Part shown: piece after piece, positions 54,642 through 64,000 of the stretch | Layout: each line of letters opens with the position of its first letter | Numbering within the stretch: the first letter of the stretch is position 1 | Source of the DNA: Caulifigura coniformis | GTDB taxonomy: Bacteria > Planctomycetota > Planctomycetia > Planctomycetales > Planctomycetaceae | Assembly: GCF_007745175.1 (NCBI RefSeq) | Contig: NZ_CP036271.1 | Span: 2,802,314 to 2,866,313, forward strand | DNA: 64,000 nt | Direction: 5' to 3' | Translations under genes and position numbers: made by a program | Notes under the pieces: generated by a model | What the model saw: only the letters and a program-made list of their open reading frames with translations | Databases searched by the model: none | What the model was told of the DNA's origin: nothing

Positions 54642-55147
54642 CGGGTCAGTCCGCCGCAACCTGTCCGGATGTGTCGTGCCGGATCCTGTGTGTGATGCCA
54701 AGACCCCGGACGACGAGCCCGCACGACTCGCTCATCCTGATGACGATTCGTCCTCACAGACCTTGCGCAGCATTCAAGTGCAGGCATTTCTCACCACCAC
54801 GAACGTCCCAGGACATTCAGGTGAACGAAGAAAGCGGTCGAAGTTGTAGAGAGCGTCGCTCGCGCTCGAAGGTCCCGGAACAAAGTCGCATCCGCTGGAA
54901 CCAGGAAACTCTGGAGATGGCGGTTTTGACCGCCCCCCTTGGAATTTACGACGTGTCCTGACTGCACTAGCATCCGACATCGACGACCTCGGGAGATGAG
55001 AGCACGGGATCACTGACATACTGCCAGACGGCTTTCCGCAAGTACTTCTGCTGAAGTTGCTTGCGTAGACGGGTGGTGTTGCAGGTGGTGAGCGCTCGCA
55101 AAAACTCGAGGCGTTCTGCGTCCCCGACGCATGACGTATGCCCATCT
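54642..55147. other. Gene-poor stretch before the tRNA fragment
   Basis: 506 bases. Short open frames exist on both strands, but none has family resemblance or consistent codon bias. A minus-strand frame ending at 54967 (tail about 60 codons, ERLEFLRAL...AVWQYVSDP) looks slightly protein-like and might be a decayed gene. Composition is less GC-rich than the neighbouring genes. I see no RNA gene apart from the tRNA fragment at 55148. Confidence 0.35.
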
Positions 55148-55187
55148 GGAGAGGTGGCAGAGCGGCCGATTGCACCGGTCTTGAAAA
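55148..55187 (+). tRNA. 5' half of tRNA-Ser(UGA), truncated after the anticodon loop
   Basis: The sequence starts with an acceptor strand GGAGAGG, continues with a D-arm (TGGCAGAGCGGCCGATTG) and the anticodon stem/loop CCGGT-CTTGAAA, with anticodon TGA at 55182-55184. After the first A of the expected 3' anticodon stem (55187) the match ends; the next bases (AGCACCGGG) differ, and no variable arm, TTCGA T-loop or CCTCTCC acceptor partner follows. It is the 5' half of a class II tRNA gene and cannot make a tRNA. It most likely marks an integration point. Confidence 0.8.
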
Positions 55188-55345
55188 GCACCGGGCTTGT
55201 AATGGCAATCTCACGGAATGTAGGAAAACACCTAGCGAAATGAGTTTCGCCGCGTTGGGTGTAGATGAGAAAAACGGTGAAAAACGGGGGTATCGGGTAT
55301 CGCGATACCCGCACAAAAAAAGCCCGGCCGAACGGCCGGGCTTTG
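55188..55345. other. Candidate attachment region next to truncated tRNA
   Basis: Right of the tRNA break lie several inverted repeats: GCGAAA (55235-55240) with TTTCGC (55245-55250); flanking ACACC and GGTGT; then the 18-bp perfect palindrome CGGGTATCGCGATACCCG (55294-55311), preceded by a direct GGGTATC. Such closely spaced symmetric sites suit integrase or excisionase binding, but this is inferred. The terminator at 55319-55344 closes the region. Confidence 0.45.
55319..55344 (-). terminator. Rho-independent terminator of the element's minus-strand operon
   Basis: AAAGCCCGGCCG (55319-55330) pairs with CGGCCGGGCTTT (55333-55344). Read on the minus strand the stem is followed by a T-tract of about seven. 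It lies three bases beyond the stop of the excisionase-like gene. Confidence 0.85.
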
Positions 55346-55346
55346 T

Positions 55347-55625
55347 TCATTTCCAAACACGATCAAGACCGTTACCACCACGGCGACCGCAAGCCAGTTT
55401 CCACCGGCCGGGAACCGGTAACTTCTGACGCTTGGTCGCTGGCTTGGGTATGGTGGAACGAGCGGCAATGAACCGCTCAAGGTCATCGGGCAGAATCCTC
55501 ATGCGAGGCCGGCGGCTGTTCGGGCGAGCGCTGACGTTGACCGCCCGCAACTCACCCGACTTGAGCCACTGTCTGACCGTCCATTCATCAACACACATCT
55601 TCGCTGCCACTTCGGCGATGGTCAT
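55347..55625 (-). CDS. Excisionase-like helix-turn-helix DNA-binding protein
   Basis: 92 residues. The N-terminal half is a MerR/Xis-type winged-helix motif: TIAEVAAKMCVDEWTVRQWLKSGELRAV, then a basic ARPNSRRPRMRILPDDLERFI wing and helix. The C-terminus is basic. Such single-domain proteins are excisionases (recombination directionality factors) or small regulators. Its start overlaps the primase-helicase stop (ATGA), so it is co-translated with the replication gene. It lies right next to the truncated tRNA and palindromic site, which fits a role in element excision. No integrase is visible in this window. Confidence 0.75.
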   Translation of the reverse strand: MTIAEVAAKMCVDEWTVRQWLKSGELRAVNVSARPNSRRPRMRILPDDLERFIAARSTIPKPATKRQKLPVPGRWKLACGRRGGNGLDRVWK

Positions 55626-58345
55626 ACGGACACGCTCCGGCTTATAGGCTGACTCGGTTCTGATTCCTTGCGGGTCTCGACCGTCTTCAGGCGAATGCCG
55701 AGAAGTTCCATCTTTCCACGGCCGCCCTTGGTGATCTTCTCAGACTCCAAGTCGTCGTAGATTTGCGTCGTCCACTTCTCGTCAGCGACATCGGGGTCGC
55801 ACCACTCGCGGAACGCCTTCCCGAATTCCTTGCATGAAACTCGGTACGATGGGTCTTTCTCACAGCACGCATCGACGAACTTCAGGACCGCTGGGCGGGT
55901 GCTCTGTTGAGCGGCGGACTTCGACTCCGTCTCGATGGCCGGAATTCGCAGACGACCGTCCGGGCTGGGCAGCGTCAGACCAAGGACGGTCTGCATGAAT
56001 GCTGGCGCTTCCGCTTCCAATCGGCGTCGGAACTCCGTTCGGGGGATTTCGTGTTCCAGCGGGCGAACCTCCATCATGGTGATTCGCGTGTCACCAAAAT
56101 CGACTGGACACGCCTTCCGATCGTTGGCCGTCTGGATGAAGTGCAGCGTGTTCGGCTGGTCGTAGGCGTCCGTCCTCATCTTCCGAATCGAGACGGTCAG
56201 GCCAGTCACCCACGCCTTAAGTCGGTTGCGTGCGGTCGTCCCAGCCTTCGACAAGTCCGTTTCTTCAATGTACGGAAGAATGGCGTTCGCCAGTTCCCCG
56301 TTGAAGTCGGTGTTCGGCTTGAACGCCTTATCGGCCCCGATCACACCGGCCGTGACCAGCAGGGAGATGGACTCATGCAGACTCGACTTCCCGGTGTTCT
56401 CGTCCTTGCTGAACAGGAACAGGTACGGGAGCGGCTGGAAAGGTTCCCTCAGCAGGCACGCGATCCACAGCAGGCCATAGTCACGACCACGAAGGACGTT
56501 GTTCGCCCTCGCCCAAGGATGGTGCGGTAGCGCGGTGTTCAAGTCCTCGAAACAGTGGTCCAACATCAAGTCCCATGTTGGATGCTGAGCGTGTTCATCA
56601 TCGGTCGGCGGAAAACGGAACTGAGGCGCATCAAGGTTGATTTGGCGGTTGCCCGGATACTCCGGCTGGAATGGGAGGTTCACCAACGTCCAAGCGTTGG
56701 TGACAATCTCCCCCAGAACCCAGTCCATCTCCGTTTTCTTCACGCCCGATCGAACAAGCGCAGCCTTGGCGTTCTCGCGTGCCGTGAACTCCCACCCGCC
56801 TTTCGCGTTCCTGATGAGCCAGCCGGCGTCCTCTTTCTTCGGCGTCTTCACCAAGCGTGCGACATTGTCGAGCGTGCCAAGTTGGACCTGCGTTTCCACC
56901 TTCGGCTTGACCGTGGTGGTAAAGCACCACTTCGACCGATGTTTCGTCCAATCCTGTAACTCCGCCGCATAGCCGTCTTGTTTGTCGGACGGGTCCGACG
57001 TGACATCCATCGTGATATGCTGGCTCTTGTCGACCCGCAGTGTGGCCTTTCGCCCCATCATCCGTGCTGGGACTGGCGCATCTCCACCAAGCAGCTTCAA
57101 GGCCGTCAGCGCGCCTTCGGCCGTCGCAAAGGCGTAGCCGTTCTGGTCGCCGTCAAGCCGTCCGCCATTCAAACGGGCGGCCGTCTTCAGGTCGGTGTCG
57201 ACGTTGAGGCGACACGTTGTCCACCCTTCACCGTCCTGTTCCCATGTCTCGGCTTCGTTGACGCCGAATGAGAATCGGTAGACGGCCCACGCTCCGTCAG
57301 GGAGCGGGAACATAAACCCGTTGGGCGTGCCGGGGTCTTTGCCCTGCGAGTTGGTTCGGAAGACGCCCTTCAGTTTGAGGTCGTCGTGAATCTCGGCGAG
57401 GCCGCCGGTGTGGATGCGGGCACAGTTGTGATCGCTCACCCACTCGCAGGCGTAGTTCGTATTACGCAGGGCGTCGAGGATGCGTCTGTGTTCGTCGTCG
57501 AGCGTGACGCCGTACTGCGAACTCGCCAGCTTGTCGAAGCTGGATTCGTCGTCGACGCCTTCGACCTTCACCTTTGCCCGTTTCCGGCGGACAACCTCTA
57601 CGTGGTCCTTCCAGTTCATCGGGAGGTCGGCAACGGACAGGGTCCGTGACGCTGACTTAATCAGCGTCAGGCCACCGTTCTCCGTGGTGGACTTCCGGTG
57701 CCAAATCCACATGTTACCACCGCAAGCGTCGATCGACTTCGCGAAGTCGAAGCCCGTCTTGGATGACATCATGCCGAGAATGCAGCGGGCGAGGGCGGCA
57801 TGCTCGGTGTGGTTTGATGTCTTGATGGCATCAAGGCGAACGTAAATGTGAAGGCCAGCGCCGCCCGTGCTTTTGCGAACCTCAACATAGTCGAGCGCCT
57901 GAGCTTCGGTCTTCACACGTTCCAGTTCAACATTGTCGACGCCGACTCCCTTGGCATGCCCGGTGATCGCATCGAAATCGAATCCGACCCAACGGGAGAC
58001 CTTGGCTTCCCAGTCCCAGCCTGTGCAGCCGATGCCCTGTGCGAATACTTCGGGCGGCCACCGCATCTCTTTGTCGTCGTAGAACGGCTTGTCCGTGTTC
58101 GCGTTTTTCGGGATGCGGATATTCCAGAACTGGTTGCCCGCGTCGTCTTCGTAGACGCCCTTAGCATCTCCCACCGGCTTGCCCTTGGCGGCAATGACAT
58201 TGACTTGGGTCTCCATCGCCGGAGACCACAGGTCGAGAAGTTCCGGCGCATTATGGGCCGGGATAGCAGGGTACGACCGAGTAGCGGGCATCCCCTCTTT
58301 CAGTTTGCCGATGAAGTTGGCAAGGGCTTGGGTGACAGTCTTCAT
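55622..58345 (-). CDS. PrimPol/D5-type primase-helicase
   Basis: 907 residues from ATG 58345. The N-terminal third carries archaeo-eukaryotic primase hallmarks: VGFDFD (Asp123, Asp125) and GLHIYVRL (His166). A linker follows. The C-terminal part is an SF3/D5-like helicase: Walker A in SKDENTGKSS (about residue 648), Walker B AILPYIEETDL (about 694), and a sensor block TANDRKACPVDFGDTRI. It would prime and unwind an element replication fork. Such proteins are typical of plasmids, phages and integrative elements. ATG 58345 replaces an upstream extension that lacks motifs. A 12-bp hairpin lies just upstream. Confidence 0.82.
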   Translation of the reverse strand: MKTVTQALANFIGKLKEGMPATRSYPAIPAHNAPELLDLWSPAMETQVNVIAAKGKPVGDAKGVYEDDAGNQFWNIRIPKNANTDKPFYDDKEMRWPPEVFAQGIGCTGWDWEAKVSRWVGFDFDAITGHAKGVGVDNVELERVKTEAQALDYVEVRKSTGGAGLHIYVRLDAIKTSNHTEHAALARCILGMMSSKTGFDFAKSIDACGGNMWIWHRKSTTENGGLTLIKSASRTLSVADLPMNWKDHVEVVRRKRAKVKVEGVDDESSFDKLASSQYGVTLDDEHRRILDALRNTNYACEWVSDHNCARIHTGGLAEIHDDLKLKGVFRTNSQGKDPGTPNGFMFPLPDGAWAVYRFSFGVNEAETWEQDGEGWTTCRLNVDTDLKTAARLNGGRLDGDQNGYAFATAEGALTALKLLGGDAPVPARMMGRKATLRVDKSQHITMDVTSDPSDKQDGYAAELQDWTKHRSKWCFTTTVKPKVETQVQLGTLDNVARLVKTPKKEDAGWLIRNAKGGWEFTARENAKAALVRSGVKKTEMDWVLGEIVTNAWTLVNLPFQPEYPGNRQINLDAPQFRFPPTDDEHAQHPTWDLMLDHCFEDLNTALPHHPWARANNVLRGRDYGLLWIACLLREPFQPLPYLFLFSKDENTGKSSLHESISLLVTAGVIGADKAFKPNTDFNGELANAILPYIEETDLSKAGTTARNRLKAWVTGLTVSIRKMRTDAYDQPNTLHFIQTANDRKACPVDFGDTRITMMEVRPLEHEIPRTEFRRRLEAEAPAFMQTVLGLTLPSPDGRLRIPAIETESKSAAQQSTRPAVLKFVDACCEKDPSYRVSCKEFGKAFREWCDPDVADEKWTTQIYDDLESEKITKGGRGKMELLGIRLKTVETRKESEPSQPISRSVSV

Positions 58346-58380
58346 ACGCTCAACTTTCTTGCTCAACAACGCGATAAGAT

Positions 58381-58414
58381 CGCAGCGCCCGGCGTGAGCG
58401 GTCCGGGCGCTGCG
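58381..58414. promoter_or_regulatory. 12-bp hairpin upstream of primase-helicase gene
   Basis: CGCAGCGCCCGG (58381-58392) and CCGGGCGCTGCG (58403-58414) pair perfectly with a 10-base loop. It lies 36 bases upstream of the primase-helicase start and has no T-tract, so it could be a terminator for upstream genes or a leader structure. Confidence 0.4.
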
Positions 58415-58461
58415 CAGCAATGGCCGTCGCCATCGCCGGTGTAAACGGGCAAAACAGGTGC

Positions 58462-58483
58462 CGTTGAACAAAGCTGTTCAACG
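58462..58483. promoter_or_regulatory. 22-bp imperfect palindrome, possible operator
   Basis: CGTTGAACA (58462-58470) and TGTTCAACG (58475-58483) with a 4-base centre. It is in the 191-base gap between the small unknown gene at 58537 and the primase gene, where a promoter for the replication operon would be expected. Confidence 0.4.
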
Positions 58484-58536
58484 ACTGAGAAAGGCATCAA
58501 TCGGGAGTGCGAGCGATGCCGGGCGGCAACGTACTG

Positions 58537-58839
58537 TCAAAGAAACTTCAGGTCGTTTAGCTGGCGTTCGGTCGGATAACCCGATGCCATCACGGCAAGT
58601 TGCCAAGTTCCGAGCCAACATCGTGTCGAGTGCCGTTGCGCCAGTTTCTTCAACTCGAAGCAGGTCTTGACCTCGCTCGGTATGCCGAATCTGGTCAGGA
58701 ACAAGAGGGCAGAGACCCATCCAACTTCATCATGGATCAGGGTGTTTCGGGCGTTTCGATAGTCAGGCGCATCAGTCCGCAGAAATCCCAGCGTCGTCAG
58801 TTCGGGTTCAGAGGCGATCAGTTCAAGGCGTTCGTTCAT
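58537..58839 (-). CDS. Small element protein, unknown
   Basis: 100 residues, mixed alpha/beta composition with LGFLRTDAPDYRNARNTL and SALLFLTRFG segments. No family recognised. Its start overlaps the stop of the ParB-like gene in an ATGA arrangement, supporting its reality and coupling. Cytosolic by sequence. Confidence 0.65.
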   Translation of the reverse strand: MNERLELIASEPELTTLGFLRTDAPDYRNARNTLIHDEVGWVSALLFLTRFGIPSEVKTCFELKKLAQRHSTRCWLGTWQLAVMASGYPTERQLNDLKFL

Positions 58840-59564
58840 GCGTGGGACTCCACCGAGAGTTGAATGAGGTTGTTAAGCACGTCGTCGTCAACCCATCCGT
58901 TGACCCACGCGAGTAGCTTGATTTCCAGTTTGAGCGGGTCGTATCCGGCGTTTGCCAGCCGATCCATCATCTTGCCAATGTCACCCTTTGACCGGCGTCG
59001 AAGTTCCTTGCACGCCATGCGGGGGTTCTTCCGCTTCTCTAAAGCCTTCGCAGCCGCTTCGGGATCGGGCGACTTCAGAATGCTGCCCACCCGCGAGATT
59101 GGAACCGCGCCGGATGCGAATTTCTTCTGAAGATGTTCGGGGAGCTTTAGGACGTGTCGGCGAGCCTGAACCCAATGCGGATCACGGCCTAATTCGCGAC
59201 CCGCGTCGACAAGACTGAATCGGTTCTCGGGATAGAGATTCTCGACCGCGCGGGCTTCCTCAACTGGGTTGAGGCTTTTTCTTGCGAGGTTCTCCGTGAG
59301 GTTCAGACGTGCGGCCTGTGAGTCATCGACTTCGACGACGTTCGCCGGGATCGTCTCCCATCTCAGGATTCGAGCGACGGCCATGAAGCGTCGGAAGCCG
59401 GCGACCAGTTCATAACGGTCGCCCTTGGGACGGACGACGATGGCTTGCAACAGGCCGTTGCTGTCGATGTCCCGTGCGAGGTCGCGGCATGAGACAACGC
59501 CGAAGAACTCGCGACAGTTGGGGCCTTCGTCGATCAATGCGACGGGGATTTTCTGAATGTTCAC
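58836..59564 (-). CDS. ParB-like nuclease/partition-domain protein
   Basis: 242 residues from GTG 59564 (GAGG upstream). The N-terminal ParB domain: VALIDEGPNCREFF, GLLQAIVVRP, YELVAGFRRFMAV, and the ENLARKSLNPVEEARAVENL box. A DNA-binding helical region follows (LGRDPHWVQARRHVLKLPEHLQ). Lacking a ParA partner, it may act in copy control, partition or as an accessory regulator. The start is preferred over a longer frame from 59615, and it overlaps the stop of the small upstream gene by four bases (GTGA). Two GC-rich hairpins lie upstream. Confidence 0.78.
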   Translation of the reverse strand: MNIQKIPVALIDEGPNCREFFGVVSCRDLARDIDSNGLLQAIVVRPKGDRYELVAGFRRFMAVARILRWETIPANVVEVDDSQAARLNLTENLARKSLNPVEEARAVENLYPENRFSLVDAGRELGRDPHWVQARRHVLKLPEHLQKKFASGAVPISRVGSILKSPDPEAAAKALEKRKNPRMACKELRRRSKGDIGKMMDRLANAGYDPLKLEIKLLAWVNGWVDDDVLNNLIQLSVESHA

Positions 59565-59752
59565 AGCAGCCTCACTTTCACAGATTCGCCGTCCAGCGTG
59601 AGCATTTGCAGGCATCGCAGCCGGGCGACGGTCATCTCACGATTGGTTCTCGAATCTGGTCGCTGAACCCATCGCAGGTATCGGGTAACGAAATCGGACA
59701 GGTCAGTTCGACCGCCGGGGACCGTGCATCGGTCCAGAAAGGTCTCGACCAC
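59561..59752 (-). CDS. Small element protein, unknown
   Basis: 63 residues from GTG 59752. Sequence blocks FLDRCTVPGGRTDLSDFVTRYLRWVQ and REMTVARLRCLQML suggest a helical DNA-associated protein, but I cannot assign a family. The stop overlaps the ParB-like GTG start by four bases, so the two are translationally coupled. Confidence 0.6.
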   Translation of the reverse strand: MVETFLDRCTVPGGRTDLSDFVTRYLRWVQRPDSRTNREMTVARLRCLQMLTLDGESVKVRLL

Positions 59753-59765
59753 GTTGATCTTTCAA

Positions 59766-59839
59766 GCCGGTCCCGGCGCGCACCGGGACCGGCGTTTGTG
59801 TACGGGTCGGTCCCGCGCGGGAAGAGTCGCGCGGGACCG
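59766..59839. repeat. Two adjacent GC-rich perfect hairpins
   Basis: Hairpin 1: GCCGGTCCCGG (59766-59776) and CCGGGACCGGC (59783-59793), 6-base loop. Hairpin 2: CGGTCCCGCGCG (59808-59819) and CGCGCGGGACCG (59828-59839), 8-base loop. Both share a CGGTCCCG core, and further GGTCCC-like fragments continue to about 59910. They fill the 171-base gap between two unknown genes, just upstream of the ParB-like gene. They may be a partition site, origin or transcriptional barrier. Confidence 0.55.
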
Positions 59840-59923
59840 GGGCCGGGCTGCATGCTGCCGGCCTCTGAGAGTTGCCCCGGCGTACTAGACCGGGGCCGAC
59901 TGAAGGGGTGAATCCGGTCCCCG

Positions 59924-60292
59924 TCAGTCGTGTACCACCACGACGTTGAGCATCGTCAGTCGCTTGGTCAGTTCGTGGCGGACCTGCCATCGGGGCGAGA
60001 CAGACGGACACCACGCAGTAACAGCCTTCACAAGATCATCGACGCTCGTCAGTCGGCCGGGGATCGGCGGATGACTGGTGAGGAACTTGTCCACGACCTC
60101 CCCAACGGTCGCCGGTCGTAAGAACAGAAAGGCGGGATCGGGAGAAGTCCAGTGGCGGAGTTGGAAGACGACGCCCCGTACATGACCTTCATGGACGGGG
60201 CGTCCAGTCGCCTTGAGGTAGGTTGTGGCAACGTCCCAAGCTCGCGATTGACCTTCGACACATCCTCTTGTAACGAACTCATCGACGGTCAT
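59924..60292 (-). CDS. Element protein, unknown
   Basis: 122 residues with a strong ribosome site (GGGAGG). Composition is mixed with DEFVTRGCVEGQSRAWDVATTYLKATGRPVHEGHVRGVVFQLRHW, a segment that resembles the small upstream-gene family (both have D(E/F)VTR and L.W blocks). No family assigned. The start overlaps the end of the coiled-coil gene by 14 bases. Confidence 0.62.
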   Translation of the reverse strand: MTVDEFVTRGCVEGQSRAWDVATTYLKATGRPVHEGHVRGVVFQLRHWTSPDPAFLFLRPATVGEVVDKFLTSHPPIPGRLTSVDDLVKAVTAWCPSVSPRWQVRHELTKRLTMLNVVVVHD

Positions 60293-60857
60293 CTGGCCTC
60301 CCGGTCACATTCCGAGTGAACAGGTTCGGTTTGTCGATCGACAAGTAGTCCACGGCCTCAGAAACGCTCTGCATTGATGCCTGCGGCATCAGGTTTTGAA
60401 CGATGATCTCCCCGCCCGGTAACACTCGCGTATGCGGGCGAAGCATCGTCACAACTTGATCCGGGTTGAATGCCCCCAGCTTCTGGGCGGTCGTCGTCAG
60501 TTCGTAGTCGATGCGGCGGGTGTTGATCTCACCTGTCAGTCGCTCCGTTTCAGCACGAAGTGGCGCAATCTTCGCCTCATGCTGCGCCGTATGCTCGGCA
60601 AGCCATGCGGCGTGATCGGCGTCAGCCTTCGCGGACTTCTCCGCAAGGATGGCGAGGACACGATTGCCGGCATCGGTCAGCGATTCGTTCTCGCGGACTT
60701 CCACACCGTGGGATTTCAGCACGTCGACAAGTTCGTCTTCGGCCGCTCGGTTCTTTCCGATCTCGACCTCAAGTTCCTCTTTCCTTGCCTGAAACTCGCG
60801 GCGGGCCTTGGCAAGTTCCGCATTCACCTCGTCTTGTGTGTAGAGCTTCTCAGGCAT
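60279..60857 (-). CDS. Coiled-coil protein, phage scaffold-like
   Basis: 192 residues. Residues about 10-110 form long charged coiled-coil (ELAKARREFQARKEELEVEI; AETERLTGEI). The C-terminal part has LGAFNPDQVVTMLRPHTRVLPGG and a DKPNLF end. This layout (long coil then a compact end) recalls phage capsid scaffolding proteins such as Gp20-type, but only weakly. An alternative is an unrelated structural or DNA-binding coil. The start overlaps the end of the next gene by 8 bases. Confidence 0.6.
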   Translation of the reverse strand: MPEKLYTQDEVNAELAKARREFQARKEELEVEIGKNRAAEDELVDVLKSHGVEVRENESLTDAGNRVLAILAEKSAKADADHAAWLAEHTAQHEAKIAPLRAETERLTGEINTRRIDYELTTTAQKLGAFNPDQVVTMLRPHTRVLPGGEIIVQNLMPQASMQSVSEAVDYLSIDKPNLFTRNVTGRPDDRR

Positions 60858-61713
60858 TGGTGGTCTCCACGGGGAACAACTGCCCCTTCAAGGTTTCATG
60901 GTCGGTCGAATCGAAGCGGGCCTTCGACACCTTCGCGACACGGTCGCCCACTTTCAGACTGAGATATTCGACATTGCCGACGACTTCCGGTGTGATGTCG
61001 TCGAACGGGCTGACCTTCAACATGGCCTCGCGAGCCTTCAGGGCATCAGTCGCCCGCTGAAGTTCCACCCGCTGGGGTTCCAGTGTCTTATCGAGAACTG
61101 CCTGAACCTGCGTGAGACGCTGCTGACTGGCAGCCACGTCAAGTCGCGTTTCGAGCATGGCCGATTCATGCTGGATTAGTTCCAGCACTTCGACAGGAAT
61201 GGCGGCGTCGTACTTCGCAAGGAACAGCGCATCGTTCAGGGCCTCGCGGGTCTTTCGATAGCCGGCAGTCTCGCGGATCGCAGCGGCAGCGGCGGCGTCC
61301 GCATCGGCCTTGAGCTTGGCGTCAAGACGTTCCTTCGCTTCGAGCAAATGCAGTTCGGGCTGCGGCAGGTTCTTCCTGCGGATTGCTTCGACCCGCGCGG
61401 CGTGTTCGTCGTAGACACGTTGTTCATGCGATCGCGCGTCGATCGGAACAGGATTCAGTTCTCGCCGGAACCGGCGTTGCTGGTCCTGACGCTGATAGTC
61501 GTTGCGAGCATCGGGGCGGGGAACGCCTTCCTTCAGTTCCTTTTTGGTCAGGGCATGCCCGGCGAACTTACTGGCCTTATCGACCATCGTCTTGGTGATG
61601 TTCTTCACGACGTTCGGGTCTTTGTCCCGGACTGGGAACTCCATCCCCAGCGTGAACGAAACGTGGTCGCCGTCTGAGGTCGAGACGGACGTGTAAATGT
61701 CCTCAAAAGTCAT
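60850..61713 (-). CDS. Element protein, unknown
   Basis: 287 residues. An N-terminal beta-strand region (VSFTLGMEFPVRDKDPNVVKN), an Arg/Gln-rich linker (RQDQQRRFRREL), then a long helical, Ala-rich region (ADADAAAAAAIRETAGYRK...). A C-terminal small domain (LSLKVGDRVAKVSKARFD). I do not recognise a family. The ribosome site is weak. It overlaps the coiled-coil gene by 8 bases, which suggests coexpression, as in phage structural or replication operons. Confidence 0.6.
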   Translation of the reverse strand: MTFEDIYTSVSTSDGDHVSFTLGMEFPVRDKDPNVVKNITKTMVDKASKFAGHALTKKELKEGVPRPDARNDYQRQDQQRRFRRELNPVPIDARSHEQRVYDEHAARVEAIRRKNLPQPELHLLEAKERLDAKLKADADAAAAAAIRETAGYRKTREALNDALFLAKYDAAIPVEVLELIQHESAMLETRLDVAASQQRLTQVQAVLDKTLEPQRVELQRATDALKAREAMLKVSPFDDITPEVVGNVEYLSLKVGDRVAKVSKARFDSTDHETLKGQLFPVETTNA

Positions 61714-61790
61714 GGTTCAATTCTTCACTATGATGTGGACGGGATTAGTAACTCGCTGCGGCAGGGAACCGTCCCGGCCCCGCACAGCGG

Positions 61791-62021
61791 CTAGATTTTC
61801 TTCATCGACAGTGCGAAGCCGTTCAGCACGGGGCCGGCAGGGCTGTCGGTCGTCGGGTGGTAGTCGACGATCGCGTTCGCGATCTTCCCTCGCGACCAGT
61901 TCCGCCGAACGGCGGCGGGCATCGCCAATCGCATGCGGAATGCGAGGGCGGCAACCAGACACGCGCCGCGCTTCGTTTCCACGGACACGGAGTTGAACGC
62001 ATTCGTAAGTTCGGGAGACAT
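61791..62021 (-). CDS. Small element protein, unknown
   Basis: 76 residues with GAGG upstream of ATG 62021. Segments TNAFNSVSVETKRGACLVAALAFRMRLAM and SPAGPVLNGFALSMKK suggest a small beta-alpha fold. Seven bases separate it from the preceding gene, so they are one operon. No family recognised. Confidence 0.62.
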   Translation of the reverse strand: MSPELTNAFNSVSVETKRGACLVAALAFRMRLAMPAAVRRNWSRGKIANAIVDYHPTTDSPAGPVLNGFALSMKKI

Positions 62022-62028
62022 CGCTACC

Positions 62029-62280
62029 TCAGACGATGTTGATCGCGCCCGTGACGCTGTGATTCCCGGCGGGGCCGGTCGCCTTCAGCTTCACGAAGGC
62101 CGTTTGCAGGTCACGCGATACGTAGCCGTCGTTCTGAAGGAACACGATCAACTCGCGCTGGCTCGCGTCGTCGCTCGGCATGCCGTTCTTTCGCAGGATC
62201 AAATCCGCAAGCCGAAACGACGGCATCGTGCCGGACTCGGTGTACGTCGAAAGAAAAGAGGTCACAAAATCTGGAAGCAC
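62029..62280 (-). CDS. Small element protein, unknown
   Basis: 83 residues from GTG 62280, preceded by GGAG at good spacing. DFVTSFLSTYTESGTMPSFRLADLILRKNGMPSDD, then RELIVFLQNDGYVSRDL. No family assigned. Longer upstream frames would run through a 14-bp hairpin and look non-coding. It is followed within 7 bases by the next small gene. Confidence 0.62.
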   Translation of the reverse strand: MLPDFVTSFLSTYTESGTMPSFRLADLILRKNGMPSDDASQRELIVFLQNDGYVSRDLQTAFVKLKATGPAGNHSVTGAINIV

Positions 62281-62566
62281 TTCAACACTCCACACAGGGG
62301 TTGCCGGGAGATGCCCGGCGCAGACACAAGGCCGACACGGCCTCGCGAGAGAAAGCAAGGCGTCAGCGGACGTGTGACACGAAACGTCCGCTGACGCGGG
62401 TCGTCGCAGGGACCGGCGACGATGGGAGAACCCGCCCGTGGGCGGTGACTTGAGAGAGAAAGCCGGGGAGACGCGGCGCAATCCGACCTCAGTCGGCGCT
62501 CGCATTGTCCCTCAATAGATGGATACTGCGTTTCGCAATTCTCAGGCTAGAAATCTGCCAAGATTC
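62281..62566. other. Regulatory gap in the element with strong hairpin
   Basis: 286 bases. Hairpin 62360-62373 with 62384-62397 (14 bp perfect, 10-base loop) is the main structure. There is also a 14-bp palindrome GATTCTCAAGAATC (62562-62575) overlapping the stop of the sigma-like gene. Composition is more AT-rich toward 62510-62566, where a promoter for the small genes downstream may lie. No clear -35/-10 pair is called. Confidence 0.45.
62360..62397. terminator. 14-bp perfect hairpin in element intergenic region
   Basis: GCGTCAGCGGACGT (62360-62373) and ACGTCCGCTGACGC (62384-62397) with a 10-base loop. It could terminate transcription after the sigma-like gene (stop at 62567) or act as an mRNA leader structure; no T-tract is seen. 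Confidence 0.45.
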
Positions 62567-63565
62567 TCAAGAATCCTGTTTCTCAGCCTTTTTTTCGGCG
62601 TCTTGCCATCGGGTTTGAAGGACGGCGAGCCGTGTCACGACCTCATCGACGGGGATCATAAGCCTGACCGCAGTATCTTCGGCCTCATGCCCGCGCAGTT
62701 TCGCGTAAACGATGTAGCAATCGTCTCCGTCCAGACACGCCGCGTAGATCGTTTCCCGTAGCTCATAGTCCGCATACGGATGCTGGCGGGCAGACTCTCT
62801 ATCAGACCGTCTGACGGCCGCTTTCGAGTCGACTTCAACATTCGCAACGCCGTCGATGCCCATGCGGGAGCGGTCGATTTCCTTATCCGACCACCTTGGT
62901 CGCGGGATATGCTTACCCGGTGACTCTTTTCGCCCGGCCTCAACGATCGCGTCCGCAGCCCGGTTCTCGATTTCCTCATTCGACGCCGTGGGATCGGCGG
63001 CGTGCGCCGCCATGATGGCAGCGTGCTTCTCCATCGCGTATTGCCAAACGGAGAACGACATCCCGAAATGCAGGTTGGCCGAGATGTAGTCGAGGATCGC
63101 GTTGTGGACTGCCGTCCAGATATAGCCGCGAGGGTTCTTCCGGGCTGCGGCCTGATACTTCTCCCCCATCTTGTCAACAGCGATGCACAGCGTGGTCAGT
63201 CCTTCGCTGTGCAGTTCATCGGCATGGCGATTGAATGCGTCATTGCTCTGTTTCTTGAGCCATCCCCCGACGATCTCATGGACATAGCCAATCTGTTCCG
63301 TAACAGCGGCTTGGTAGAGCTTCCGACCTGACAGCCTGTCGGCGTCTCGCTCGGCCTGACTCGCGGCCACGAACGTATCAAGGGCCGAAGGCACACCGAA
63401 GCACACCATCTGCGGTTGCGACAGCAAGACGCCCGCCAACGGCGACAACGTAATCGTGACCGGCGTGGACTGCTGCGCTACGTCAGCCCGGCGCTTCAGC
63501 CGTGGCCGGCGCGGCGCAGGGTCGTTGAAGCCGAGAAACCGAACGTCGTGGATTGCCAGTTCCAT
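62567..63565 (-). CDS. Sigma-70-like (weak) element protein
   Basis: 332 residues. The central block RKNPRGYIWTAVHNAILDYISANL is reminiscent of sigma-70 region 2/ECF-type helices. The C-terminal segment (DCYIVYAKLRGHEAEDTAVRLMIPVDEVVTRLAVLQTRW) resembles a region-4 HTH with its recognition part. An N-terminal extension (residues 1-100, KRRADVAQQSTPVT...) is element-specific. If correct, it would redirect polymerase to element promoters, but similarity is weak. It is followed by the small unknown gene at 63918 with a 1-base overlap (TAATG). Confidence 0.5.
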   Translation of the reverse strand: MELAIHDVRFLGFNDPAPRRPRLKRRADVAQQSTPVTITLSPLAGVLLSQPQMVCFGVPSALDTFVAASQAERDADRLSGRKLYQAAVTEQIGYVHEIVGGWLKKQSNDAFNRHADELHSEGLTTLCIAVDKMGEKYQAAARKNPRGYIWTAVHNAILDYISANLHFGMSFSVWQYAMEKHAAIMAAHAADPTASNEEIENRAADAIVEAGRKESPGKHIPRPRWSDKEIDRSRMGIDGVANVEVDSKAAVRRSDRESARQHPYADYELRETIYAACLDGDDCYIVYAKLRGHEAEDTAVRLMIPVDEVVTRLAVLQTRWQDAEKKAEKQDS

Positions 63566-63918
63566 TACAGTGCCCTTTCAAGCAACAGCGCCCCGCCGAC
63601 GATGTCGACCCGCTTGAGTCTGCCGTTCTTGCCCACGGCGTTGCCCGCCGCATTGATGATGGCCTTCGCGATGTCCTTCGACGGCTTCTCCCGGCACAAC
63701 TGAAGGGCGACATCGCGAATCACGTCGTCGTCATCCAGCCTGCCCAGTTCCGTCAGCAGAGTCGGCTTCCACCTCAACCAGTCGCAGTCCAGCCCGTCGA
63801 TGACGTGAAGCGTTCGGTCTCGGTAGTGGTAGTTCTGGTAGGTCCGCATCGTGAGGCCGTCGCCATAGGCGGCCTTCAGGTGGTCTAACTCGGATGCGGT
63901 GAGAACTCGTTGTCGCAT
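63565..63918 (-). CDS. Element protein, unknown
   Basis: 117 residues from ATG 63918, with GAGG upstream, just after the stop of a preceding gene. Sequence includes LTASELDHLKAAYGDGLTMRTYQNYHYRDRTL and KDIAKAIINAAGNAVGKNGRLKRVDIVGGALLLERAL. No family recognised. The overlap TAATG couples it to the sigma-like gene. The reading frame continues upstream to the window edge without a stop, but the ribosome site and the neighbouring stop favour this start. Confidence 0.62.
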   Translation of the reverse strand: MRQRVLTASELDHLKAAYGDGLTMRTYQNYHYRDRTLHVIDGLDCDWLRWKPTLLTELGRLDDDDVIRDVALQLCREKPSKDIAKAIINAAGNAVGKNGRLKRVDIVGGALLLERAL

Positions 63919-63925
63919 GGGTGCC

Positions 63926-64000
63926 TCAATTGGAAACGGCGATTCCGTCCCCTCTGGCGAGCGGCGTGCCACGGCGTAAGTCCAATCGCCACGTCGAAGG
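63926..64000 (-). CDS. 3' end of a further element gene, 5' end outside window
   Basis: The frame ends at TGA (63928-63926), seven bases before ATG 63918, and is open to the window edge, giving at least 24 residues ending GTPLARGDGIAVSN. The ribosome site of the next gene overlaps this stop, a compact arrangement typical of the element. Product unknown. Confidence 0.5.
   Translation of the reverse strand, partial: PSTWRLDLRRGTPLARGDGIAVSN

Follow-up and report, generated by a model that had tools for sequence, protein, structure and literature searches.

In the part of the Islander survey that we could consult, 3919 tRNA islands are counted, 3760 with a 3′ fragment and 159 with a 5′ fragment of the tRNA gene (PMC4383910), and for mycobacteriophages an excerpt states that the common cores typically include the tRNA 3′ half (PMC10865867). 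According to the available sections of two papers, archaeal pTN3-like integrases use the tRNA 5′ half as their site and part the tRNA from its promoter (PMC8371274, PMC5495485); one of them, a review, calls this use of the 5′ half seldom met in bacteria (PMC8371274). Integrases that lack the first catalytic arginine (Arg I) have been described as well. The passages at hand report that some members of the IntCTnDOT subgroup without Arg I use another arginine further downstream, and that the IntDes subgroup, reported solely from Desulfovibrio and with no function described, has a shifted first arginine and a tyrosine in place of the first histidine (PMC8138268).

Taken as a single island, the element described here from Caulifigura coniformis is of the known minority type. 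It shares with the Islander 5′-fragment islands, as characterised in the consulted part of that survey, an intact tRNA at one end, a same-strand 5′ fragment at the other and an integrase inside; this type is a minority over all integrases, whereas it is a near-constant habit in the Arg-I-less clade to which the enzyme of this element belongs (PMC4383910). As far as we have checked, the pairing of a 5′ habit across a whole clade with a missing Arg I is new. We found no earlier description of a 5′-restoring planctomycete integrase family in the open-licence literature, which is weak evidence of absence. With the pTN3-like integrases, as far as the available sections describe them, the clade shares the attachment site in the tRNA 5′ half and a rebuilt tRNA that would be severed from its original promoter (PMC8371274, PMC5495485). 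This likeness is drawn from descriptions, and the pTN3-like integrases are archaeal, whereas the present clade is bacterial. In addition, the attP of pTN3, by the same partial account, lies inside the integrase gene, so that integration breaks this gene, whereas here an unbroken integrase reading frame begins 89 bp from the intact tRNA-Ser(UGA), on its upstream side.

The two junctions and the element between them

The window, by which we mean the whole 64-kb stretch that was analysed, covers C1:2802314-2866313 of a single-contig genome of 6.76 Mb. This genome has 51 PSCyt2 domain matches, whereas 0 of 14 control genomes reach the cut-off, in keeping with a planctomycete host. Its positions 55148-55187 (+) are exactly positions 1-40 of tRNA-Ser(UGA) and comprise the acceptor 5′ strand, the D-arm, and the 5′ stem and loop of the anticodon arm, with the anticodon TGA at 55182-55184 and the end at the anticodon loop. 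An earlier note, made from the letters of this DNA, had placed a cut tRNA-Ser(UGA) between the same coordinates, which proved exact to the base, and had seen neither T-arm nor 3′ acceptor strand after 55187. We found neither: the sequence right after 55187 contains nothing tRNA-like and no 3′ half, and ARAGORN returned zero tRNA genes over the full window. The note had also predicted that the functional gene would be rebuilt at the other end with an element-borne 5′ half, and had proposed looking past position 64000 for a second junction. Both an intact tRNA-Ser(UGA) and a neighbouring integrase gene are present there. ARAGORN places an intact tRNA-Ser(tga) at C1:2873528-2873615, and positions 1-40 of this gene are a second copy of the 40-base half on the same strand (39/40 identical, 98%, E = 1.1e-12). 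The intact gene lies downstream of the fragment, with 16,067 bp between the two starts. Thus the locus has what Islander looks for, a same-strand 5′ fragment upstream of an intact tRNA gene and a PF00589 integrase inside an interval of 2-200 kb. As the finding that would tell against its own reading, the earlier note had named a complete gene in another place without the matching half at either end of the element; the arrangement seen is a different one.

A genome search with tRNA-Ser(UGA) at E ≤ 1e-8 gave four matches in total, namely the gene itself, the fragment, and the CGA and GGA serine tRNAs. Because of this result, the host appears to have one tRNA-Ser(UGA) gene, the rebuilt copy. Base 16 was tried as a marker of the ancestral copy and dropped as uninformative (T in 12 and C in 8 of 20 tRNA-Ser(UGA) genes, own gene included).

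Table 1. Features of the integrated element and its junctions; positions are those of the window unless a locus is named.
Feature	Position	Strand	Basis
Stranded chromosomal 5′ half, tRNA-Ser(UGA) positions 1-40, left attachment junction	55148..55187	+	repeat comparison
Part of the 16-kb integrated element inside the window (left-hand 8.8 kb); the remainder extends to C1:2873527	55188..64000		tRNA repeats and integrase
Three GGGTATCG end-repeat copies (55288 and 55295 direct, 55303 inverted); candidate arm-type integrase sites	55288..55310		
Hairpin resembling a terminator, downstream of the left tRNA half	55319..55344	+	
Excisionase-like HTH protein, 92 aa	55347..55625	-	Pfam HTH_17 1.7e-7; PHROG 66 1.2e-8
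DUF5906/P4-type primase C-terminal-like replication protein, 949 aa	55622..58471	-	2.9e-10; weaker primase matches besides
ParB-like protein, 259 aa	58836..59615	-	ParB_N 2.2e-15
Tyrosine integrase without Arg I, 372 aa	L009:15821-16939 (beyond the window)	-	PF00589 9.3e-14
Rebuilt intact tRNA-Ser(UGA)	L009:17029-17116 (beyond the window)	+	ARAGORN

From left to right the element consists of the 5′ half, the three GGGTATCG copies, the hairpin, the excisionase-like, DUF5906/primase-like and ParB-like genes, and several further reading frames that gave no family match (Table 1); beyond the window follow a restriction-modification set, an HNH gene, the integrase, two GGGTATCG copies and the rebuilt tRNA. 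The earlier note had called the genes to the right of the cut phage- or plasmid-like, with an excisionase-like gene first, and the profiles agree (an excisionase-type HTH, DUF5906/primase and ParB-like matches), the match of the first protein to TIGR01764 (excise, 3.1e-5) lying under the family cut-off. That all genes run on one strand holds inside the window, where the likely genes are on the minus strand, and fails beyond it, where plus-strand genes are present. The cargo at L009:12004-14700 is a type II restriction-modification set of control protein, restriction enzyme and C5 methylase; the restriction enzyme matches PDLC03403 (2.9e-73) and the methylase has an N-terminal HTH. The same genome holds a second element with an integrase of the same family, 12,245 bp long, in tRNA-Arg(UCU) and with a 5′ half identical at 40/40 positions (L299-L301, G000:C1:5244400-5304399).

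Exact copies of the 8-bp repeat GGGTATCG number five in the 19-kb locus L009 and are confined to the element ends; the two at the right end are spaced 12 bp apart in the gap that separates integrase and intact tRNA. In 12 elements we counted the 8-mers that occur both in the stretch from integrase to tRNA and in the outermost 250 bp of the far end, each time against 300 mononucleotide shuffles. In 11 of the 12, at most 12 of the 300 shuffles reach the observed number, and in nine at most two do; in the element of genome G184 the end repeats are not above shuffles (144/300). In several elements a repeat pair 12 bp apart lies near the integrase, and the far end has both direct and inverted copies some 100-130 bp inward, a layout that we take to be the one expected of arm-type sites of lambda-type integrases. 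The GGGTATCG repeats are thus candidate arm-type integrase sites. A terminator-like hairpin is found in the first 200 bp of the left end in 5 of 17 elements, a modest excess over the roughly one expected; Rfam matches near 55280-55364 were all under the gathering scores.

The two ends are no longer identical upstream of the tRNA start, and therefore rebuilt tRNAs must use element DNA there. This observation suggests that the rebuilt tRNA is expressed from the element. The E. coli-type -10 consensus is not enriched upstream of rebuilt tRNAs (23 gaps, 1.83 mismatches as compared with 1.89 in shuffled sequence). One sigma-70-like site upstream of the rebuilt tRNA, which overlaps a repeat (9/12, 0.1 expected), was considered too weak to use. 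In G066:C33 (L084-L086), the 30 bases upstream of the fragment and of the intact tRNA-Arg(UCU) are identical, which fits a tandem insertion of two family elements.

Orientation of the integrase clade at its tRNA targets

Relatives of the integrase (E ≤ 1e-30) occur in 55 of 170 genomes of the host family, own genome included, and 29 of 58 genera have a member. We took a census of 61 distinct genomic anchors on the upstream side of the integrase start alone. A tRNA lies within 450 bp upstream in 45 of them, and the integrase faces the 5′ end of this tRNA in 44 cases and the 3′ end in one; the other 16 have no tRNA within that distance, some for want of sequence. The 45 members span 17 tRNA isoacceptor types, with Arg-CCU and Arg-UCU together making up 20. 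Two further sets were examined on both sides of the integrase. Among 30 genomic loci, 21 have a tRNA within about 1.5 kb on either side, and 20 of the 21 face the 5′ end. A scan of IMG/VR gave 41 viral-contig loci, 39 of which were aligned (the short matches L283 and L284 stand outside the alignment); in ten of the 39 a tRNA is located at most 450 bp away to one side or the other, all ten facing the 5′ end, and 29 have none that near.

In a search of the far side for 47 anchors, a 5′-half tRNA repeat was found in 17, so that both ends are mapped for 16 elements besides the tRNA-Ser element. Repeat identity in the first 14 mapped elements starts at tRNA base 1-3 and ends 4-9 bases past the first anticodon base. 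No convincing far-side fragment was obtained for 29 of the 47 anchors, in many cases because the contig ends; for the two elements of genome G067 the fragment is absent within 60 kb and present within 80 kb. This genome harbours a 72-kb family element in a selenocysteine tRNA (tRNA-SeC) with the 5′ half repeated over 43 bases (G067:C1:1515201-1595200; L104-L106, L319). The preference is not absolute, because one family member beside tRNA-Glu(CUC) (L307, G162:C219) has a 3′-half repeat (positions 33-74, 42/42) at a distance of 9.2 kb and, judged by this repeat, is a natural flip that restores the 3′ half.

Ordinary integrases provide the contrast. We chose by hand, among the matches listed, 60 other PF00589 loci from eight of twelve genomes, own genome included; the set leaves out the top-scoring Xer-like matches, the Arg-I-less family and four of the twelve genomes. 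A tRNA is located no more than 450 bp from 28 of these loci; 27 of the 28 face its 3′ end and one (L221) its 5′ end. Fisher tests against the first 21 tRNA-near contrast loci give p = 2.5e-7 for the ten viral members and p = 1.2e-11 for 23 genomic members, values that are descriptive since related rows are not independent. The ordinary 3′-restoring integrases of the same genomes likewise target tRNA genes, serine tRNAs included, and share the fold superfamily. They differ from the Arg-I-less clade in facing the tRNA 3′ end (27/28) and in keeping Arg I, which is present in 60/60; the clade is opposite on both counts. The genome under study is integrase-rich (G000:C1, at least 30 PF00589 matches at E ≤ 1e-5), and 18 of 18 contrast loci there have Arg I.

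Ordinary integrases were also found at tRNA-Ser genes of relatives, and in genome G002 one of them faces the 3′ end of tRNA-Ser(UGA). Four relatives (G032:C23, G033:C1, G002:C1 and G025:C87; L131-L137) contain 3′-half fragments of tRNA-Ser(UGA) in the same genomes, several of them nearby. Hence, this tRNA is also a target of conventional elements of the opposite type in relatives. The Arg-I-less family profile was not found in 3′-fragment elements of relatives, and the family has no match at E ≤ 1e-4 in the phages and plasmids collections. A search of genome contigs gave one distant match (25%), and a phylum-wide profile search, in which the best five candidates per genome were scored, found the family in at least 7 of 392 genomes, own genome included.

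These counts suggest that the clade nearly always restores the tRNA 5′ half, which to the extent of our checks has not been described before. To the earlier note the locus was a single instance of a familiar type; our counts place it in a whole clade with a 5′ preference. The strongest objection is that this preference might be a sampling effect of a few successful lineages rather than a clade property. Members are related, so their counts are not independent; the two arginine tRNAs account for 20 of the 45 cases, and one member is flipped. Against this stand the number of isoacceptor types and genera involved (17 types in the 45 genomic cases, 29 of 58 genera) and the agreement of the independent viral-contig set, and we consider a sampling effect unlikely.

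The integrase active site

The canonical Arg I of the RKHRH pentad is absent from the integrase of the tRNA-Ser element, which has a glycine there. Pairwise alignment to solved Xer proteins likewise puts Gly at the Arg I position and Tyr at that of His. K238, R314 and Y345 are present, and the residue two before the catalytic lysine (K-2) is Arg236. This pattern recurs among 69 members, of which 30 are genomic and 39 viral. In place of Arg I they have Gly (58), Tyr (8), Leu (2) or Ile (1) and never Arg, whereas K-2 is Arg in 69/69; the His of HxxR is replaced by Tyr (58), Gly (6), Lys (2), Asn (2) or Ser (1). The catalytic Lys is kept in 69/69, Arg II in 68/69 and the nucleophilic Tyr in 67/69. 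In a maximum-likelihood tree (quick method), the 69 members fall on one side of a branch with SH-aLRT 100, opposite 48 ordinary integrases. The predicted model of the viral homologue L244 (pLDDT 90.4) has a three-strand-plus-helix arm-binding domain, a core-binding domain and a catalytic domain, and its best structural matches are the lambda and Tn1549 integrases.

Judged by its conservation and by analogy, the Arg at K-2 probably stands in for Arg I. In CTnDOT the substitute arginine likewise sits two residues before the lysine. As described in the excerpt, the IntCTnDOT subgroup comes from Bacteroidetes elements, and some of its members resemble the Arg-I-less clade in the missing Arg I; IntDes, compared by description only, is portrayed with the same kind of changes in the catalytic core (PMC8138268). 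It is conceivable that the Arg-I-less protein is a catalytically dead relative of integrases that acts as a regulator, and that another recombinase moved the element. Arg I and in most members the HxxR His are indeed missing, and the integrase-like repressors SroF and YopR, presumably dead enzymes, appear among the weaker matches of the L244 model. However, almost every member retains the other catalytic residues, members are found repeatedly at the rebuilt tRNA end, and no other recombinase was recognised among those element proteins that were scanned with Pfam. Moreover, a CTnDOT-type integrase without Arg I is reported, in the part of the source at hand, to work by way of another arginine (PMC8138268). 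We therefore rate a dead regulator as slightly less probable still than a sampling effect, and an active integrase, as the residues suggest, remains the preferred reading.

Proposed integration and its likely consequences for host tRNA genes

We propose that recombination by a tyrosine integrase, at the anticodon loop, inserted a 16-kb integrative element into the tRNA-Ser(UGA) gene. The attachment site of the element would be a copy of tRNA positions 1-40. Integration would strand the chromosomal 5′ half and the native upstream region at the left end and would rebuild the gene at the right end from the element-borne 5′ half and the chromosomal 3′ half; the DNA upstream of the working tRNA would thus come from the element. 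That the element kept the chromosomal 3′ half and gave the 5′ half with upstream DNA is our reading because of the 39/40 repeat, the adjacent integrase and the 8-bp repeat limited to the ends. The integrase would represent a clade that nearly always restores the 5′ half, lacks Arg I, mostly has Tyr for the HxxR His and probably relies on the K-2 Arg instead. Anatomy, clade, orientation preference and residue pattern are read from sequence; catalysis by this protein, the part played by the K-2 Arg and by the end repeats, and tRNA expression from element DNA are inferred. We regard this model as a whole, role of the K-2 Arg included, as highly probable. In a search for the empty site, the left-flank transporter was found in 10 of 39 relatives and the right-flank chloride channel in 2 of 39, with no tRNA-Ser detected by ARAGORN in those loci, and neither flank protein matches the loci around the tRNA-Ser genes of relatives.

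Since tRNA fragments, the subject of one report (PMC9897764), are common in genomes, the 40 bases could be the relic of a former tRNA duplication or decay that has nothing to do with the element. The 39/40 identity on the same strand, the exact stop in the anticodon loop, the integrase, the end repeats and the like arrangement in 16 further elements make this very improbable. An intron within the gene, or a split tRNA whose parts are united in trans, is suggested by the cut in the anticodon loop, where tRNA introns sit, and may practically be dismissed given an intact gene with the same anticodon 16 kb away, a fragment that no 3′ half follows, and Rfam matches at 54900-55500 that, up to E = 1, include no family of group I introns.

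Returning to integration by an element that restores the 5′ half, we note that most Islander islands leave a 3′ fragment, and therefore the tRNA remains under its host promoter. The clade reverses this usual mode and would provide many natural cases of a host tRNA that depends on mobile-element DNA, with an enzyme that lacks an arginine described as otherwise strictly preserved. A wider reading is plausible but on balance slightly doubtful: the Arg-I-less clade, which is present on viral contigs and, within one planctomycete family, in roughly one in three of the genomes searched, would have rebuilt its active site on a relocated arginine and specialised in tRNA 5′ halves. Host tRNA genes, here apparently the sole tRNA-Ser(UGA), would then run from element DNA with likely integrase-binding repeats, so that tRNA supply is tied to the element and its imprecise loss is lethal; IntDes would either belong to this clade or have arisen in parallel. 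The clade thereby suggests a function for the IntDes recombinases, which were reported with none known. It also opens tests of how the orientation of an attachment site is set, for which one flipped member is at hand, of how an integrase works without Arg I, and of whether an element may regulate a host tRNA or hold it hostage.
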